5,207 nucleotides of DNA from positions 1 to 5,207 of the forward strand of contig CALALQ010000286.1 in assembly GCA_937925595.1 (NCBI GenBank). Direction: 5' to 3'. A program made the position numbers and the translations under genes. Source of the stretch: an uncultured Demequina sp. Its GTDB lineage: Bacteria; Actinomycetota; Actinomycetes; Actinomycetales; Demequinaceae. This document shows positions 1 through 5,207 of this stretch, in pieces (the stretch's first letter is position 1; every line of letters begins with the position of its first letter). The notes below the pieces were generated by a model, which did not search any database, had not been told where the DNA came from, and saw only the letters and a program-made list of their open reading frames with translations.

Positions 1-376
1 CCATGACCTTGATGATCTTCTCGCCCGCGACCTCGCCGAGCGAGCCGCCGAAGATGGTGAAGTCCTGCGAGTAGACCGCGACCTGTCGGCCGTGGATCGT
101 CCCCGTTCCCGTGACGACGGCGTCGCCGTAGGGCCGTCGCGACTCCATACCGAACGCGTGTGTGCGGTGGCGCACGAACTCGTCGAGTTCGACGAACGAG
201 CCCGGGTCGAGCAGCTCGGCGATGCGTTCGCGGGCGGTCATCTTGCCCTTGGCGTGCTGCTTCATGATCGCCGCCTCGCCGGAGGCGGTCACGGCTTCGT
301 GATAGCGCCGCTTCAGGTCGGCGAGTTTGCCGGCGGTCGTGGAGAGGTCGGGGCCGTCGTCGATCGGTTCGGTCAC
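1..376 (-). CDS. accD: Acyl-CoA carboxylase beta (carboxyltransferase) subunit, 5' part only
   Basis: This is the N-terminal 125 residues of a biotin-dependent acyl-CoA carboxylase beta subunit (AccD5/PccB type). It reads from GTG at 376 leftwards and is cut by the window edge; the full family length is about 520-550 residues. The subunit transfers carboxyl from carboxybiotin to acetyl-, propionyl- or longer acyl-CoA in the cytoplasm. That feeds fatty acid synthesis and methylmalonyl-CoA metabolism. Visible family landmarks are KMTARERI at residues 45-52, the [14 protein letters not shown] strand at 84-97, and [14 protein letters not shown] at 102-115, the beginning of the carboxyltransferase core. 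The start was chosen because the protein opens MTEPIDD, the family homology begins soon after, and a -10-like box lies 7 nt upstream. It diverges from birA, whose product biotinylates the partner alpha subunit. Substrate choice (acetyl, propionyl or long-chain) cannot be judged from this fragment. Confidence 0.95.
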
Positions 377-389
377 GCGATTCACTCTA
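377..389 (-). promoter_or_regulatory. Putative -10 box for a leaderless accD transcript
   Basis: On the minus strand TAGAGT (389-384) is followed by exactly 7 nt and then the GTG start at 376, with no Shine-Dalgarno sequence between. This spacing puts the expected transcription start on or next to the first base of the start codon, the leaderless arrangement common in actinobacteria. No convincing -35 hexamer is visible. The assignment rests on hexamer match and spacing only. Confidence 0.5.
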
Positions 390-445
390 CCGGCGCACCT
401 CCAGGCCGCTTCGTTGACGGATTCCTACAAATCGAGCCTGGACAC

Positions 446-490
446 TAGCCTGAATCCCACACGTACTGCGTCTCGAACACGCGCTGGAGG
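446..490 (+). promoter_or_regulatory. Putative birA -10 box and Shine-Dalgarno site
   Basis: Within the 118-bp divergent accD-birA gap, TAGCCT (446-451) fits the TAnnnT pattern of a -10 box, with an expected transcript start near 458. No good -35 lies at 17-18 nt. A TTGACG at 414-419 is too far upstream (26 nt) to pair with it. GGAGG at 486-490 lies 4 nt before the ATG at 495 and is a strong ribosome binding site that fixes the birA start. The rest of the gap shows no gene. Confidence 0.4.
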
Positions 491-494
491 TGAC

Positions 495-1328
495 ATGGAC
501 TGGGAACGTTCGCGGGCTGCCGTCCCGCGGTTCGAGTTCCTCGAGCAGGCGGGATCGACGAACGACGAGCTGCGTATCGCGGCGACCGGGACGGATGCCT
601 CGGGCTGGCCGCACGGCTCGGTGATCGTGACCGACGATCAGACGGCCGGGCGGGGGCGGCTCGGCCGCACCTGGCTCGCCCCCACCGGGAAGACGCTCGC
701 GATCTCCGTGCTGCTGCGGCCGACCGCCCTCGACCGGACCATCCCGATGAGTGCGTACGGCTGGTTGCCGCTGCTCGCCGGAGCCGCGATGACCGAAGCC
801 GTCCGAACGGCGCTCGACGGCGCGGTGCCCGCAGAACCGGAGGACTCGAGCGGCGGGTTGGATGCCTCGCTGAAGTGGCCGAACGATGTGCTCGTGTCGG
901 GCTTCAAGGTGTGCGGAATCCTCTCCGAGCTGCTCGCCGACGGCGACGGCGTGATCGTCGGTGCTGGACTCAATCTCACGCTCGACGAGCACGACCTGCC
1001 GACCTTGACCTCGACGTCGCTGCTGCTCGCGACCGGTCGACACCCGGACGCGGATGCCGTTCTCGCCGACTACCTCGGCCGACTGCTCGGGCTGGTCGAT
1101 GAGCTCGCGGCGCACGCGGGCGATGCGGTCGCGAGTGGGCTCGCCGACCGCGTTGCGGGTCTGTGCGGAACGCTCGGGCAGGAGGTCCGGGTCGAGCTGC
1201 CGGGTGGAAGTGATCTGCTCGGTACCGCGGAACGCATCGACCGTGACGGGCGGTTGGTGGTCCGGGACCACGAGAACGGTGAGCCTCAGGCTGTCGCCGC
1301 CGGCGACGTGACCCACCTGCGCTATTAA
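495..1328 (+). CDS. birA: Biotin--[acetyl-CoA-carboxylase] ligase (BirA)
   Basis: This is a 277-residue biotin protein ligase. It activates biotin with ATP to biotinyl-5'-AMP and transfers it to the lysine of the biotin carrier domain of acyl-CoA carboxylase alpha subunits and pyruvate carboxylase. The catalytic domain carries GRGRLGRTW at residues 52-60 (the biotinyl-AMP binding loop), KWPND at 127-131, K138-x-x-G141-I-L (the catalytic lysine region) and GAGLN at 156-160. A small SH3-like C-terminal domain covers about 226-277 and ends with the typical GDVTHLR. There is no N-terminal winged-helix DNA-binding domain, so this is a class I, non-repressor ligase. ATG at 495 is preferred over in-frame upstream starts because GGAGG lies 4 nt before it and homology begins with FEFLEQAGSTND. 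The acidic stretch at about 110-122 is a loop insertion before KWPND. The neighbour on the opposite strand encodes a subunit of its target enzyme. Confidence 0.96.
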   Translation: MDWERSRAAVPRFEFLEQAGSTNDELRIAATGTDASGWPHGSVIVTDDQTAGRGRLGRTWLAPTGKTLAISVLLRPTALDRTIPMSAYGWLPLLAGAAMTEAVRTALDGAVPAEPEDSSGGLDASLKWPNDVLVSGFKVCGILSELLADGDGVIVGAGLNLTLDEHDLPTLTSTSLLLATGRHPDADAVLADYLGRLLGLVDELAAHAGDAVASGLADRVAGLCGTLGQEVRVELPGGSDLLGTAERIDRDGRLVVRDHENGEPQAVAAGDVTHLRY

Positions 1329-1335
1329 TGGGCGT
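1323..1335 (+). promoter_or_regulatory. Possible -10 box overlapping the birA stop codon
   Basis: TATTAA at 1323-1328 includes the birA stop codon and lies exactly 7 nt before the ATG at 1336. This is the same geometry as at accD and purE. It could allow a leaderless transcript of the PH-domain gene independent of birA. The hexamer matches TATAAT at only 4 of 6 positions and lacks the final T, so it may be coincidental. The PH gene may simply be co-transcribed with birA. Confidence 0.25.
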
Positions 1336-1944
1336 ATGAACCGCCCGCCCCGTGAGGGACCTGTGTCACCGGCCTCCGGGCCGGGGTCGCACGCTCCGCC
1401 TCCGGCGGGTTCGGCGGTTGCGCAGCCACCGCCGGAGCGTGTCGTCGCGCGGATCCGCAGACACGGACGGGTACTGACTGTGCCGGTCCTGCTGATGTTC
1501 GTCGTCGCGTGCCTCACGCCCTACGCCGTGTTCACCGTGAACGAGGTGTGGCAACGGATCGCCGTCGGTGCGGTCGCCGCGCTGGTGATCGTCCTCGGCA
1601 CGTTGCTGCCCTTGCTCGCCTGGCTCACGCGCCGATGGACGGTCACGACCCGGCGCGTGATCATGCGATCCGGTGTGTTCACCAGGTCGCGGCAAGAACT
1701 CGCGCTCTCCCGGGCACACGATGTGACGGTCCGACGCACGCTCGGGCAGCGCATGTTCGGCGCGGGCGACGTGCGCATCACGACGGCGCACGAGCGTGCA
1801 TTCGTGCTGCACGACGTCCCGGCGCCGCTCGTCGTCCAAGCGGCGCTCGACGAGCTCATCGAGCGATCGCATCGGGACCTCTCGGCGGGACGCTTCGATT
1901 CCGGCGAGGCCGACGGCGACACCGTGGTGTGGGGCACGCGGTAG
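1336..1944 (+). CDS. Membrane protein with bacterial PH domain (bPH2/DUF304 type)
   Basis: This is a 202-residue membrane protein with a Pro/Ala-rich, probably disordered N-terminus (1-34). Two hydrophobic helices follow at about 46-66 and 76-97, then a bacterial PH-like domain at about 98-176. The domain begins RRWTVTTRRVIMRSGVF and continues with a DVTVRR strand and GAGDVRITTAHE, the typical order of the YdbS/DUF304 family. The C-terminal tail is hydrophilic. Both ends are expected to face the cytoplasm. The specific function is unknown for the family. It starts 7 nt after birA, and a protein of this kind follows birA in mycobacteria (Rv3278c), so co-transcription is likely. The start is uncertain: ATG 1336 has no Shine-Dalgarno sequence but has a -10-like box 7 nt upstream. 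GTG 1363 (residue 10) is preceded by GAGGG at 1354-1358 and would remove only disordered sequence. Confidence 0.88.
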   Translation: MNRPPREGPVSPASGPGSHAPPPAGSAVAQPPPERVVARIRRHGRVLTVPVLLMFVVACLTPYAVFTVNEVWQRIAVGAVAALVIVLGTLLPLLAWLTRRWTVTTRRVIMRSGVFTRSRQELALSRAHDVTVRRTLGQRMFGAGDVRITTAHERAFVLHDVPAPLVVQAALDELIERSHRDLSAGRFDSGEADGDTVVWGTR

Positions 1945-1981
1945 CCGGATGCGGGTGGACCGATCGTGTTCGGAAAGCGCG

Positions 1982-2032
1982 TACAGTGGTCGGGCGACGC
2001 TCGCGTGAACCCGGCGCGAGCCGCGAGAGAGG
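1982..2032 (+). promoter_or_regulatory. Putative promoter -10 box and Shine-Dalgarno site of the DarT-like gene
   Basis: The 94-bp gap after the PH gene contains TACAGT (1982-1987), a good -10 match that would start a transcript near 1994. GAGAGAGG (2025-2032) then lies 6 nt before the TTG at 2039. This Shine-Dalgarno site decides the unusual TTG start. The best -35-like element, TGGACC at 1956-1961, is 20 nt away and weak. A promoter of its own would uncouple this gene from the birA-PH pair. I see no clear terminator in the gap. Confidence 0.42.
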
Positions 2033-2038
2033 TTCACG

Positions 2039-2884
2039 TTGGACGAGTGCATCCACGGTTTCGACGACGGCCTGTGCGCCATCTGCTTCCCGCCGAAGGC
2101 GCCCGAGCCACCGGCGCCCGAACCGCCGAAGGCGCGGGCTCCGCGTGCGTCGTTGCGGACGCCGACCGCGGCAGGTCCCGACGGTTCGCGACCCAAGCGC
2201 GGGTCGACGCGTGCCGCACGACTGGCCGATGAGCCGCCCGTCGACCCTGCCAAGCTCCGGGTCTACCACCTCACGCATCTCGACAACCTCGCACGGATCC
2301 TCGGAAGCGGCGCACTCCTCGCCGACGCCGGTGACCCGCCGGCCGCACCCGTGGTCGACATCGCGGCTCCCGCCGCGCGGGAGTACCGCCGGTCGACGCC
2401 GGCCGGCGAGCAGGACGCGACGCTTGCGGACTACGTCCCGTTCTTCCTGAGTGTGGACGCGCACCTCTGGATGGCGATCCGAGACGGCGCAGGAGACCCC
2501 CGTCTGTCGTCGCCGGCGCCCGACGAATCGCGCGACGCGGCTGATTTCGTGCTGCTCGTGAGCTCGGCGGCGCAGGCGACTGGTGCCCGCGTGTCGCAGC
2601 CGGGCCATGTGATCGCGGCGACCTCCGACGCGTCGCTGCCGGGTGCCGAGCTCGCCGTCGGCTGGTATGAGGCCGAACGCGTGCTGCGCCGCATGGCGGT
2701 CCACGACGAGGGTCTCGCGGCCGGCGAGTTCCTGGTCAAGGGTGAGGTGCCGCTCGAGCGCATCCAGCTCGTTGCCGTGGCCAACGATCGCGTGCGCGAC
2801 CGGGTGCGTGCCGCGCTCTCCGCGGTCGGTGCGAAGACGCGGGTCGCCGTCTACCCGCCGTGGTTCCAGGCCTCCGAGGTCTGA
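2039..2884 (+). CDS. DarT-like (DUF4433) ADP-ribosyltransferase-fold protein with N-terminal Cys/His motif
   Basis: The gene encodes 281 residues, starting at TTG. Residues 1-17 hold C4-x-H6-x6-C13-x2-C16, probably a small zinc site. Residues 18-70 are a Pro/Ala/Arg-rich linker with a tandem APEPP repeat (21-30). The rest resembles DarT, the NAD+-dependent enzyme that ADP-ribosylates thymidine in single-stranded DNA. Shared features are YHLTHLDNLARIL at 76-88 (the NAD-binding segment) and REYRR at 114-118, where DarT has its catalytic arginine. Others are LADYVPFF at 129-136 and AGEFLVKGEVPLE at 228-240, with E230 aligning by eye with the catalytic glutamate. After DYVPFF, the PRSPMLY stretch of classical DarT is replaced by LSVDAHLW, so target or activity may differ. 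No DarG macrodomain antitoxin is adjacent: upstream is the PH gene and downstream the convergent gtrA, which it overlaps by 34 nt. Family assignment is fairly secure; activity and target are inferred. Confidence 0.8.
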   Translation: MDECIHGFDDGLCAICFPPKAPEPPAPEPPKARAPRASLRTPTAAGPDGSRPKRGSTRAARLADEPPVDPAKLRVYHLTHLDNLARILGSGALLADAGDPPAAPVVDIAAPAAREYRRSTPAGEQDATLADYVPFFLSVDAHLWMAIRDGAGDPRLSSPAPDESRDAADFVLLVSSAAQATGARVSQPGHVIAATSDASLPGAELAVGWYEAERVLRRMAVHDEGLAAGEFLVKGEVPLERIQLVAVANDRVRDRVRAALSAVGAKTRVAVYPPWFQASEV

Positions 2885-3453
2885 CCCGACCGGGCGCCCG
2901 GCACCCCGTCATCGGGGGGACCCGCGGTCGAGCTCGGCTCTTCGAACAGGGCGCGTTGCGCCTCTTCGACCCGGGCGAGGTTGGAGACTCCGTCGGCCCG
3001 ATGATGTCCGAACACCCAGTAGCGGTAGAGCAGGAATCGGAAGGCCGTGCCGAGACCGAGGCCGACGACGTTCGAGGCGACGTTGTCGGCGAGCAGGCTC
3101 GTGTAGCCGAGCGCGTGATGGCTGAGCCAGAGGCATCCGAGCGAGATGAACATGCCACCCAGGGAGACGGCGACGTACTCGGCGAACTCGCGGAGGTAAT
3201 TGCGGCGACGGTGTCGCCGGAAGGTCCAGTAGCGGTTGCCGATCCAGTTGAAGACGATCGCCACCGAGGTGGAGATGGTCTTCGCGCCGATCGCGGATTG
3301 CGCCCAGCCGTCCACACCGAACACCCCGAGACGCAATGCGTTGAACAGCGCGACGTCGATGACCAGCCCGATGAGGCCGACCACGCCGAACTTCACGGCG
3401 TACGTGATCAGGCCGTCCCATGCCCGCTCGAGCAGGCCGCCCCCGCGCAGCAT
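2851..3453 (-). CDS. GtrA-like four-helix membrane protein
   Basis: This is a membrane protein of about 200 residues of the GtrA family. These proteins are thought to help move or present polyprenyl-linked sugars for cell-envelope glycosylation. Numbered from ATG 3453, hydrophobic helices lie at about 16-40, 54-73, 92-113 and 122-146. Family signatures are NWIGNRYWTF at 69-78 after helix 2 and FRFLLYRYWVF at 138-148 at the end of helix 4. A hydrophilic tail of about 50 residues follows helix 4. The open frame extends upstream to ATG 3513, but those 20 residues are not membrane-like. A TATCCT box (3468-3463) lies 6 nt before GTG 3456, which directly precedes ATG 3453, so a leaderless start at 3456/3453 is preferred. 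No Shine-Dalgarno site is visible at any candidate. No glycosyltransferase gene is adjacent. In M. tuberculosis a similar gene (Rv3277) also lies opposite purK. The stop lies inside the DarT-like gene. Confidence 0.88.
   Translation of the reverse strand: MLRGGGLLERAWDGLITYAVKFGVVGLIGLVIDVALFNALRLGVFGVDGWAQSAIGAKTISTSVAIVFNWIGNRYWTFRRHRRRNYLREFAEYVAVSLGGMFISLGCLWLSHHALGYTSLLADNVASNVVGLGLGTAFRFLLYRYWVFGHHRADGVSNLARVEEAQRALFEEPSSTAGPPDDGVPGARSGQTSEAWNHGG
2890..2917. other. Tandem palindrome and hairpin just after the DarT-like stop
   Basis: Six bases past the TGA at 2882-2884 there is a perfect 12-bp palindrome, CCGGGCGCCCGG (2890-2901). It is followed by a 5-bp stem with a 4-nt loop, CCCCG-TCAT-CGGGG (2904-2917). 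Both lie within the coding sequence of the gtrA C-terminal tail. They could form RNA structure at the end of the DarT-like mRNA, but neither is followed by a T run, so intrinsic termination is not shown. GC-rich DNA yields such structures by chance. Confidence 0.3.
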
Positions 3454-3462
3454 CACCGGGCC

Positions 3463-3492
3463 AGGATAGTCGCGGCCGACCACGCTTAGACT
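3463..3492. promoter_or_regulatory. Divergent, overlapping gtrA and purK promoter region
   Basis: On the plus strand TAGACT (3487-3492) is a -10 candidate for purK, giving a leader of about 70 nt before GTG 3569. On the minus strand TATCCT (3468-3463) is a -10 candidate for gtrA, 6 nt before GTG 3456. The expected -35 position of each falls on the -10 of the other, and neither has a good -35 match. The two polymerases would compete for the same 30 bp. The assignment rests on hexamer resemblance only. Confidence 0.35.
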
Positions 3493-3555
3493 GTGAGATC
3501 GCGGTGTGATCATCGCGCCGGCCCCGGCCGGTGAGGCATCAACGAGAACAGGGAA

Positions 3556-3560
3556 TGAGG
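3556..3560 (+). promoter_or_regulatory. Shine-Dalgarno site deciding the purK start
   Basis: TGAGG lies 8 nt before GTG 3569. Translation from this GTG gives [15 protein letters not shown], the normal beginning of PurK. The in-frame GTG at 3506 would add 21 residues outside the family alignment and lacks a ribosome binding site. Confidence 0.6.
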
Positions 3561-3568
3561 TCGGTCGA

Positions 3569-4699
3569 GTGCGGGTCGGAGTGATCGGTGGCGGTCAGCT
3601 GGCGAGGATGATGATTCCGGCCGCGATCGAGCTCGGGGTGGACCTCCGCGTGCTCGCCGAGGGTGAGGGCATGTCCGCCGCGCTGGCGGCCACGCAGGTC
3701 GGCGACTACACGGATGCTGCGACTGTGCTCTCGTTCGCCCGCGAGGTCGACGTCATCACCTTCGATCACGAGCACGTGCCGCAAGACGTCCTCCGGGCCT
3801 TGGTCGACGAGGGGATCCCGGTGCGCCCGGGCCCGGGCGCACTCGCGATCGCCCAGGACAAGCTGCTCATGCGCGAGCGCCTGTCCGAGCTCGGGCTCCC
3901 CGTTCCGGACTGGGCGCGCGTCGAATCGCCCGCCGAGCTCGACGAGTTCATCGCCGCCCACGGCGGCGTCGCGGTCGTGAAGACGCCCCGTGGGGGCTAC
4001 GACGGCAAGGGCGTCCGGGTGGTCCGGTCGTCGGACGAGGTCTCGGAGTGGTTCGCCACCATCGTCGAAGACGGTCGAGCGGGCGCCCTGCTGGCCGAGG
4101 AACTCGTCGACTTCCGGCGCGAGCTCGCGCAGCTCGTCGCGCGCCGGCCCAGCGGCGAGACCGTCGCGTGGCCGCTCGTCGAGACGGTTCAGGTCTCGGG
4201 CGTGTGCAGCGAGGTCATCGCGCCCGCGCCGAAGTCGGCCGGCCGTATCGCGGACCTGGCGGGTGACATCGCGTTCGCGGTCGCCGAGGGGCTCGACGTG
4301 ACGGGCGTGCTCGCGGTCGAGCTGTTCGAGACCGTGGACGACCGCGTGCTCATCAACGAGCTGGCGATGCGGCCCCACAACAGCGGGCACTGGTCGATGG
4401 ACGGCGCGACCACCGGGCAGTTCGAACAGCACCTTCGCGCGGTGCTCGACCTGCCCCTGGGGGGCACCGGGACGCATGCCCCGTGGGCGGTGATGGTGAA
4501 CATCCTCGGCGGGCCCGAGGAAGGCACCATCGCCGATCGCACCCCGGCGGCGCTCGCGGGGCATCCGACCGTGAAGCTGCACGCGTACGGCAAGGCGCCG
4601 AGGCCGGGCCGCAAGGTCGGCCATGTCACGGCGATCGGTACGGACCTCGACGACGTCGTCTACGAGGCGCGTGCCGCAGCGGCCGAGTTCCAGGGCTGA
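3569..4699 (+). CDS. purK: 5-(carboxyamino)imidazole ribonucleotide synthase (PurK)
   Basis: This is a 376-residue ATP-grasp enzyme, of normal family length. It converts AIR, bicarbonate and ATP to N5-CAIR in the purine pathway, in the cytoplasm. From GTG 3569 the order is: N-terminal nucleotide-fold domain with GGGQLARM at 7-14 and TFDHEHVP at 64-71; ATP-grasp core with K138 and the glycine-rich loop GGYDGKG at 142-148; ELF at 251-253; and [14 protein letters not shown] at 262-275, which supplies metal- and substrate-binding residues. GQFEQHLRA follows at 283-291, then the C-terminal [10 protein letters not shown] segment at about 345-354. No key residue appears missing. purE, for the next reaction, begins 64 nt downstream. 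The gap contains a strong hairpin and a -10 box, so purK and purE may be only partly co-transcribed. The upstream neighbour gtrA diverges. Confidence 0.97.
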
Positions 4700-4719
4700 T
4701 CGGGCTGCGTTCGCCGAGT

Positions 4720-4744
4720 GGCGCTGCGGGAATCTCCCAGCGCC
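4720..4744 (+). terminator. Hairpin in the purK-purE gap; possible terminator or operator
   Basis: GGCGCTG (4720-4726) is perfectly complementary to CAGCGCC (4738-4744). With one bulged C at 4727, the inner bases GG(G) at 4728-4730 can pair with (T)CC at 4735-4737 around an AATC loop, giving 9-10 base pairs. It begins 20 nt after the purK stop and ends 6 nt before the purE -10 box. There is no T run, so it would be a U-less actinobacterial-type terminator, an attenuating structure, or, as DNA, a regulator-binding inverted repeat covering the purE -35 region. Which of these applies cannot be told from the sequence. Confidence 0.45.
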
Positions 4745-4750
4745 CAGCCC

Positions 4751-4763
4751 TACACTCGATCGG
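4751..4763 (+). promoter_or_regulatory. Putative -10 box for a leaderless purE transcript
   Basis: TACACT (4751-4756) is followed by exactly 7 nt and then GTG 4764. No Shine-Dalgarno sequence precedes this GTG, so initiation on a leaderless transcript is the simplest reading. The -35 position (about 4728-4733) lies within the hairpin loop region and has no consensus match. Confidence 0.5.
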
Positions 4764-5207
4764 GTGACTGAGACGAACAACCCCCCGCTCGTCGGGGTCG
4801 TGATGGGCTCCGATTCCGACTGGGGCGTCATGCGAGAGGCCGCCGAACTGCTCGAGCAGTTCGGTGTGCCGCACGAGGTGGAGGTCGTCTCGGCCCACCG
4901 GACACCCGAGAAGATGATCGCCTACGGGAAGCAGGCGGCCGGTCGCGGACTGAAGGTCGTGATCGCCGGGGCGGGCGGCGCGGCGCACCTGCCCGGAATG
5001 CTCGCGTCGGTCACCACGCTGCCGGTCGTCGGCGTGCCGGTCCCGCTCGCGCGCCTCGACGGCCTCGATTCGCTGCTGTCGATCGTGCAGATGCCCGCGG
5101 GTGTGCCCGTCGCGACCGTCTCGATCGGCGGCGCCCGGAATGCCGGGCTGATCGCGGTGAAGATCCTCGCGACGTCCGACCCCGCGCTCGCCGAGGCGCT
5201 TGCGGGC
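4764..5207 (+). CDS. purE: N5-carboxyaminoimidazole ribonucleotide mutase (PurE, class I), 3' end missing
   Basis: This is an open frame of 148 codons from GTG 4764 to the window edge with no stop. Class I PurE is usually about 160-170 residues, so only a short tail is missing. The enzyme rearranges N5-CAIR, the PurK product, to CAIR. Motifs are GSDSD at 15-19 (substrate phosphate and metal region), SAHRTP at 43-48 with the conserved histidine H45, and [12 protein letters not shown] at 68-79 with H75. [29 protein letters not shown] at 101-129 forms the rest of the active-site wall (given here as landmarks: [10 protein letters not shown] and IGGARNAGL). The presence of purK supports the class I mutase over the class II AIR carboxylase. 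The start was chosen because the family homology ([10 protein letters not shown]) begins 9 residues later. The -10 box 7 nt upstream suggests a leaderless message. Confidence 0.96.

Follow-up and report, generated by a model that had tools for sequence, protein, structure and literature searches.

A solitary DarT-like gene with an N-terminal Cys/His module may represent a third, antitoxin-free DarT lineage

DarT toxins are known in pairs with DarG or NADAR. What, then, does a DarT-like gene do when no such partner stands beside it? This question is raised by a gene on a stretch of 5,207 nucleotides from an uncultured Demequina sp. (GenBank assembly GCA_937925595.1, contig CALALQ010000286.1, positions 1 to 5,207, forward strand), which as a whole is called the window here. 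An earlier sequence-only reading had described a DarT-like protein that carries a Cys/His module and stands alone, without an adjacent DarG, and this description held in the window and in the relatives of the gene. Judged from the sequences, chances are about even that the gene represents a third DarT lineage which does without an antitoxin, has an altered target and possibly bears a zinc knuckle. On this reading it would be a chromosomal member of the DarT superfamily that is specific to its lineage, consists of one gene and lives without an antitoxin. The gene and its parts are located as follows.

2039..2884, plus strand: DarT-like gene, 281 amino acids, TTG start and TGA stop
2045..2092, plus strand: module E3-C4-x-H6-G7-x5-C13-x2-C16-x-P18, a candidate zinc knuckle, from conservation in relatives
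2048-2050 (C4), 2054-2056 (H6), 2075-2077 (C13) and 2084-2086 (C16), plus strand: ligand candidates
2093..2236, plus strand: Pro/Ala/Arg-rich linker; blocks of 56, 46 and 56 in predicted local distance difference test (pLDDT) over residues 31-60 (low confidence)
2258..2866, plus strand: DarT-fold ADP-ribosyltransferase (ART) domain, residues 74-276, from Pfam, PADLOC and the alignment with Thermus DarT

All DarT landmarks that had been noticed earlier (YHLTHLDNL, REYRR, DYVPF and EFLV...VPLE) were found in the 281-residue product. Of the checks proposed at that time, two were run: the DUF4433/DarT profile PF14487 matched above its gathering score (58.6 bits, cut-off 22.5, E 9.3e-16), and the computed fold matches DarT. 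The PADLOC DarT model also matched (E 1.9e-24). With the profile score, the DarT fold and the catalytic Glu and Arg present, the protein belongs to the DarT superfamily (PF14487). The NCBIfam equivalog toxin_DarT (NF048013) reached 68.3 bits, below its curated cut-off of 150. Tpt1/KptA RNA 2'-phosphotransferase was considered as another candidate and rejected, since Pfam at E values up to 10 returned DarT only and the ART-type Glu is invariant.

Of 7998 candidates scored in a protein search, 228 were relatives with an E value of 1e-3 or lower, and the organism-named relatives among the 120 matches listed are Agromyces. In a scan of a species-genome collection 181 encoding stretches were found. 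The best 80 of these 181 were analyzed and comprise 31 from Agromyces, others from Cryobacterium, Frigoribacterium, Leifsonia, Homoserinimonas, Lacisediminihabitans, Glaciibacter, Glaciihabitans, Marisediminicola and Microterricola, and metagenome-assembled genomes labelled Microbacteriaceae or Actinomycetota; Herbiconiux, Pseudolysinimonas and Protaetiibacter were added later. In the family of Agromyces soli, 99 of 199 sampled genomes carry PF14487, from 92 of which 93 loci were taken, the other seven genomes being already among the first 80 loci. Roughly every second genome of this family sample thus carries the solitary DarT-like gene. PF14487 was found in 20 of 396 genomes sampled order-wide and in 25 of 394 sampled class-wide. 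Those order-wide loci that were read and have the module score at least 330 bits with the family profile, except for the divergent L229 (50 bits); L221, L230, L231, L233 and L235 have no module. Neither does any of the 16 new class-wide loci (L253-L268), 12 of which encode a module-less protein by the canonical profile, while this profile found no protein in L263, L266, L267 and L268. The family alignment holds 165 sequences, namely the window protein and 164 distinct relatives (170 before identical ones were merged); two loci at contig ends (L018, L021) and L166 were left out. In a tree of 74 domains, which takes 55 of the 165 family proteins and whose bootstrap is not fully settled, these 55 form one group (98/96) and 17 canonical DarTs another (95/86); next to the family group stands a long branch with two divergent paralogs. 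The accessible parts of the open-licence literature (PMC11543638, PMC5179494, PMC9411070, PMC11281641, PMC9503650, PMC12170906, PMC11481870) contain no description of this DarT family, a statement that does not extend to the members of the tree of about 5,000 DarTs reported in PMC11481870.

The whole-genome search for a distant DarG that had been suggested for the window was run on the genomes of relatives. The macrodomain PF01661 was absent from 62 of the 99 gene-bearing genomes of the family sample and from 13 of the 28 of the first set. Therefore, a distant macrodomain antitoxin is disfavoured. In the other 37 of the 99 genomes a macrodomain does occur: 15 pairs share a contig, the nearest at 29.8 kb, and 22 pairs lie on different contigs. 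Over all 199 genomes, 37 have both genes, 62 DarT only, 18 the macrodomain only and 82 neither. NADAR was found in none of the 199 family genomes, nor among the neighbours in the window. In the first set, one of 28 genomes (G028) has a NADAR, on another contig than the gene. Two weaker macrodomain matches were also seen in this genome (Leifsonia sp. Leaf264, L079; further L095, L096 and L097). ADP-ribosylglycohydrolases (ARH) are present in 76 of the 199 family genomes; G129, G124 and G003 have three to seven such matches each, several of them close together.

As controls for the partner search we took the nine best of the 16 class loci, the other seven and the five order-wide loci without module lying outside this search. 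Eight of these nine canonical actinobacterial DarTs have a Macro open reading frame (ORF) directly behind them (Pfam, 70-91 bits), which indicates that the search does pick up existing partners. The ninth DarT is truncated and followed by a transposase. Moreover, an annotated macrodomain gene lies behind five of seven plasmid DarTs (taken from 11 plasmid matches), and a hypothetical protein behind the other two.

The active site was mapped by profile alignment with Thermus DarT, whose chain has Ala in place of Glu160, and by an alignment of 15 family and 17 canonical proteins. Positions H13 and T15 of DarT2 are the chain positions less one (the chain is numbered from 0), and R51, H119, Y71 and E160 were taken from papers. 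Five residues of the window protein are central to the comparison.

2267..2269, plus strand: H77, His of the NAD+ site (DarT2 H13 by alignment), kept in 164/165
2387..2389, plus strand: R117 (DarT2 R51), kept in 163/165
2468..2470, plus strand: W144, Trp in 165/165 of the family, L or M in 17/17 canonical DarTs
2627..2629, plus strand: D197, base-coordinating position (DarT2 H119, DarT1 N104), Asp in 155/165
2726..2728, plus strand: E230, catalytic glutamate (DarT2 E160, DarT1 E152), 165/165

T79 corresponds to T15 of DarT2 and is kept in 163 of the 165 proteins. The role of R51 in DarT2 is described in PMC11281641. According to PMC11543638, Y71 of DarT2 holds the nicotinamide as part of the H-Y-E motif, and the base is coordinated by H119 in DarT2 and by N104 in DarT1. 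At the latter position the 17 canonical proteins have N (10), H (6) or S (1), whereas Asn is found in a single family protein out of 165. The equivalent of Tyr71 is F136 in the window and mostly F, L or S in the family (Tyr in 12/165), compared to Tyr in 17/17 canonical DarTs. Likewise, Met directly precedes the W144 position in 17/17 canonical proteins and is mostly replaced by V, L or R in the family (Met in 6/165). In DarT the DNA is held by the ADP-ribosylating turn-turn (ARTT) loop, whose DW...W stretch is present in 15 of the 17 canonical rows and lost in the family. The span from D197 to E230 measures 35 residues in 107 of the 165 proteins and 33 in the window, while it measures 41 in DarT2 and 48 in DarT1 by the published residue numbers. 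The catalytic core is intact and the target-reading parts are changed together, which looks like a change of substrate; we infer that the altered base-reading and nicotinamide sites reflect a changed substrate.

Compared with DarT2 of the DarTG2 type (Thermus sp. 2.9 DarT, PDB 7omv), the family gene thus has no DarG beside it, Asp instead of H119, a mostly lost Tyr71 and Met, and a shorter ARTT loop, and the protein gains the N-terminal Cys/His module and the linker. Compared with DarT1 of the DarT1-NADAR type (E. coli C7, PDB 8baq), NADAR is missing from all 199 family genomes, N104 is replaced by Asp, and module and linker are again added. What marks a DarTG2 system, namely an adjacent DarG, a base-coordinating His/Asn and the nicotinamide Tyr71, was not found for this gene, and neither were the NADAR antitoxin gene and the Asn104-type guanine-coordinating residue of DarTG1.

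The cluster C-x-H-x6-C-x2-C that had been pointed out before is formed by C4, H6, C13 and C16 within residues 1-18, and may be a zinc knuckle. These four residues are fixed in the 165 aligned proteins by the selection rule itself, a rule that 78 of 80 and 92 of 93 loci passed; E3, G7 and P18 are invariant in 165/165. In the first scan the module stands at the protein start in the same 78 loci, and the remaining two begin at a contig end. The exception in the family sample, L166, is another protein, a second copy in its genome. A model of the module alone (35 amino acids) reached a pLDDT of 82.6; Foldseek returned nothing for it, the query being too short to conclude from. In 2.48 million bases from loci that had been selected for their DarT or macrodomain genes, every occurrence of C-x-H-G-x5-C-x2-C falls in a DarT-like ORF; given this selection, the result says little about whole genomes. 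Between the Cys/His cluster and the DarT domain lies a Pro-rich linker, as had been read from the sequence. This linker is probably flexible, and it measures 30-69 residues across the family (median 44) with 20% K+R and 4% D+E. Its basic character suits contact with nucleic acid. Over 178 closer pairs, the ratio of nonsynonymous to synonymous substitution rates (dN/dS) was lowest in the module (0.20), followed by the domain (0.32) and the linker (0.47). Therefore, module and enzyme domain are both under purifying selection.

The window, which reads as a contig of an Agromyces-like bacterium, has its genes in the order accD (minus strand), birA, bPH_2 protein gene, DarT-like gene, gtrA (minus strand), purK and purE, the last of which was assigned from position and sequence without a profile scan. 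The direct neighbours are not DarG, as had been stated before, and were identified by profile scan.

1336..1944, plus strand: upstream neighbour, bPH_2 (bacterial PH domain) protein, no antitoxin family
2851..3513, minus strand: tail-to-tail neighbour gtrA, GtrA/DPMS transmembrane protein, no antitoxin family

The 3' end of the DarT-like gene shares 34 bp with gtrA. At every one of the 31 Agromyces loci the gene is adjoined by purK and purE, and at 29 by gtrA; accD, birA and the PH gene adjoin it in 29, the other two loci beginning at a contig end, and all six neighbours are present in 27. These loci were found via the gene itself, so its presence in every Agromyces is not implied. None of the other 49 of the 80 loci has the Agromyces neighbours, and outside Agromyces no ORF cluster exceeds 27 of 135 loci. 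By these counts the gene is fixed in place in Agromyces and sited elsewhere in other genera. In L161, L179 and others of two 9-locus clusters the gene lies upstream of rplD and rplB (identified by eye), the distances from the gene start being about 2.3 and 3.2 kb. At E 1e-5, no relatives were found in 72,556 plasmid records or in 50,697 phage records.

Second, divergent DarT-like proteins starting with CGHGIDxDACLFC were found in two genomes (L251:4689-5627 in G014 and L252:4665-5636 in G588). As in the family, C-x-H-G-x5-C-x2-C precedes their DarT domain; unlike in the family, a second His/Cys-rich stretch replaces the long basic linker, and their branch is long. This stretch resembles the Ada zinc motif; Pfam reported no match of that kind. 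The L251 paralog is surrounded by genes for a Vsr endonuclease, a DrmB-like protein and a C5 DNA methylase, and the L252 paralog lies behind a UvrD-type helicase; of the seven proteins scanned at these two loci, none was recognised as a macrodomain. Since module and DarT domain are here found together beside defence-type genes, a defence origin or role has to be kept in view.

We propose that the family enzyme is active and would move ADP-ribose from NAD+ to something that is neither of the usual targets in single-stranded DNA, thymidine and guanine. This target would probably be a nucleic acid, either structured RNA or special DNA, which the candidate zinc knuckle and the basic linker would bring to the active site. 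No antitoxin would be needed because the activity would be confined to that special target. A narrower version is tentative, its probability falling somewhat short of even: a chromosomal, antitoxin-free third DarT class of the Microbacteriaceae would use an invariant zinc knuckle and a basic, flexible arm to deliver the new substrate, most likely structured RNA or special DNA, to a site rebuilt with Asp and Trp, and would serve housekeeping modification of nucleic acid. The interpretation given with the sequence-only reading is partly supported: among the options that it had offered, a different job is favoured by the synteny in Agromyces, the lack of plasmid and phage copies at E 1e-5, the lack of NADAR, the frequent absence of any macrodomain from the genome and the changed base-reading residues. 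A distant macrodomain antitoxin, another of these options, could still act in the 37 genomes that have one. If the proposal is true, a nucleic-acid-modifying toxin fold can be domesticated. Roughly half the species sampled from one family carry a DarT-fold gene that has its catalytic residues intact and no DarG or NADAR partner beside it, and this provides a natural set of 165 sequences with jointly changed base-reading sites. With this set it becomes directly testable what determines the target of DarT, and how cells put up with such an enzyme when it is always present.

Several points weigh against an antitoxin-free lineage with an altered target. Activity, target and metal are predictions; the gene is missing from 100 of the 199 family genomes, and its genomic place differs between genera. 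In 22 of the 37 genomes that have both, gene and macrodomain lie on separate contigs, and the two co-occur above expectation (Fisher p 0.0026, uncorrected for kinship and genome size). ARH were found in 44 of the 99 gene-bearing genomes, and only 30 of the 99 are without macrodomain, NADAR and ARH altogether, genome completeness not being given. The paralogs with the same Cys/His spacing beside defence-type genes suit a defence role. The main rival, which we consider rather unlikely, is a one-gene effector of anti-phage defence or abortive infection, in which the Cys/His module or the linker restrains DarT until phage nucleic acid or protein appears and DNA or RNA is then ADP-ribosylated. DarTG systems defend against phages, as three papers describe (PMC11543638, PMC11281641, PMC11481870), the PADLOC model matches, and presence in half of the family genomes suits a defence gene just as the genes around the two paralogs do. 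This rival is harder to reconcile with the one position that the gene keeps throughout the 31 Agromyces loci, within the reach of their contigs, with the lack of plasmid and phage copies at E 1e-5 and with the absence of a conserved neighbour outside Agromyces.

An ordinary DarT toxin directed at DNA thymidine, held by low expression and a distant or different hydrolase, is quite improbable. It would explain the co-occurrence with the macrodomain and the presence of ARH, and it fits the weak start codons: by the nearest-start rule, 84 of the 164 distinct relatives begin with TTG, 66 with GTG and 14 with ATG, counted without a genome-wide baseline. This preference for TTG and GTG may mean low translation; an ATG is available at most 12 codons upstream of the chosen start in 19 of the 164. 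Against such a toxin stand the 62 genomes without a macrodomain, the 30 without any of the three hydrolase families, and the changed base-reading and nicotinamide sites. The frequent loss of the nicotinamide-side Tyr and Met would also suit a dead ART fold that senses NAD+ or ADP-ribose by binding only, a very improbable reading given the near-complete retention of the catalytic Glu, Arg and His and the dN/dS of the domain. Less probable still is an ADP-ribosyltransferase on the DarT fold that is directed at proteins or small molecules, for which the shortened DNA-holding ARTT loop and its lost DW...W stretch could be cited.

Upstream of the gene, two short elements were noted.

1977..1989, plus strand: GCGCGTACAGTGG, within the conserved block CGTAxxGT.G, candidate -10 region
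2025..2032, plus strand: GAGAGAGG, Shine-Dalgarno-like, 6 nt ahead of the TTG, read from sequence

The block CGTAxxGT.G lies about 50-60 bp before the start and proves conserved when the window is aligned with 29 Agromyces loci. A promoter search found no sigma-70-like site upstream of the DarT-like gene; the GCGCGTACAGTGG block is a possible -10 region of the gene's own promoter. Finally, on the minus strand of L166:3115-7003 (G192), a DarT-like ORF stands in a row of three, after the gene of a UvrD-type helicase and before that of an ADP-ribosylglycohydrolase, and this locus is possibly a DarT-type system in which an ARH-type partner replaces DarG.
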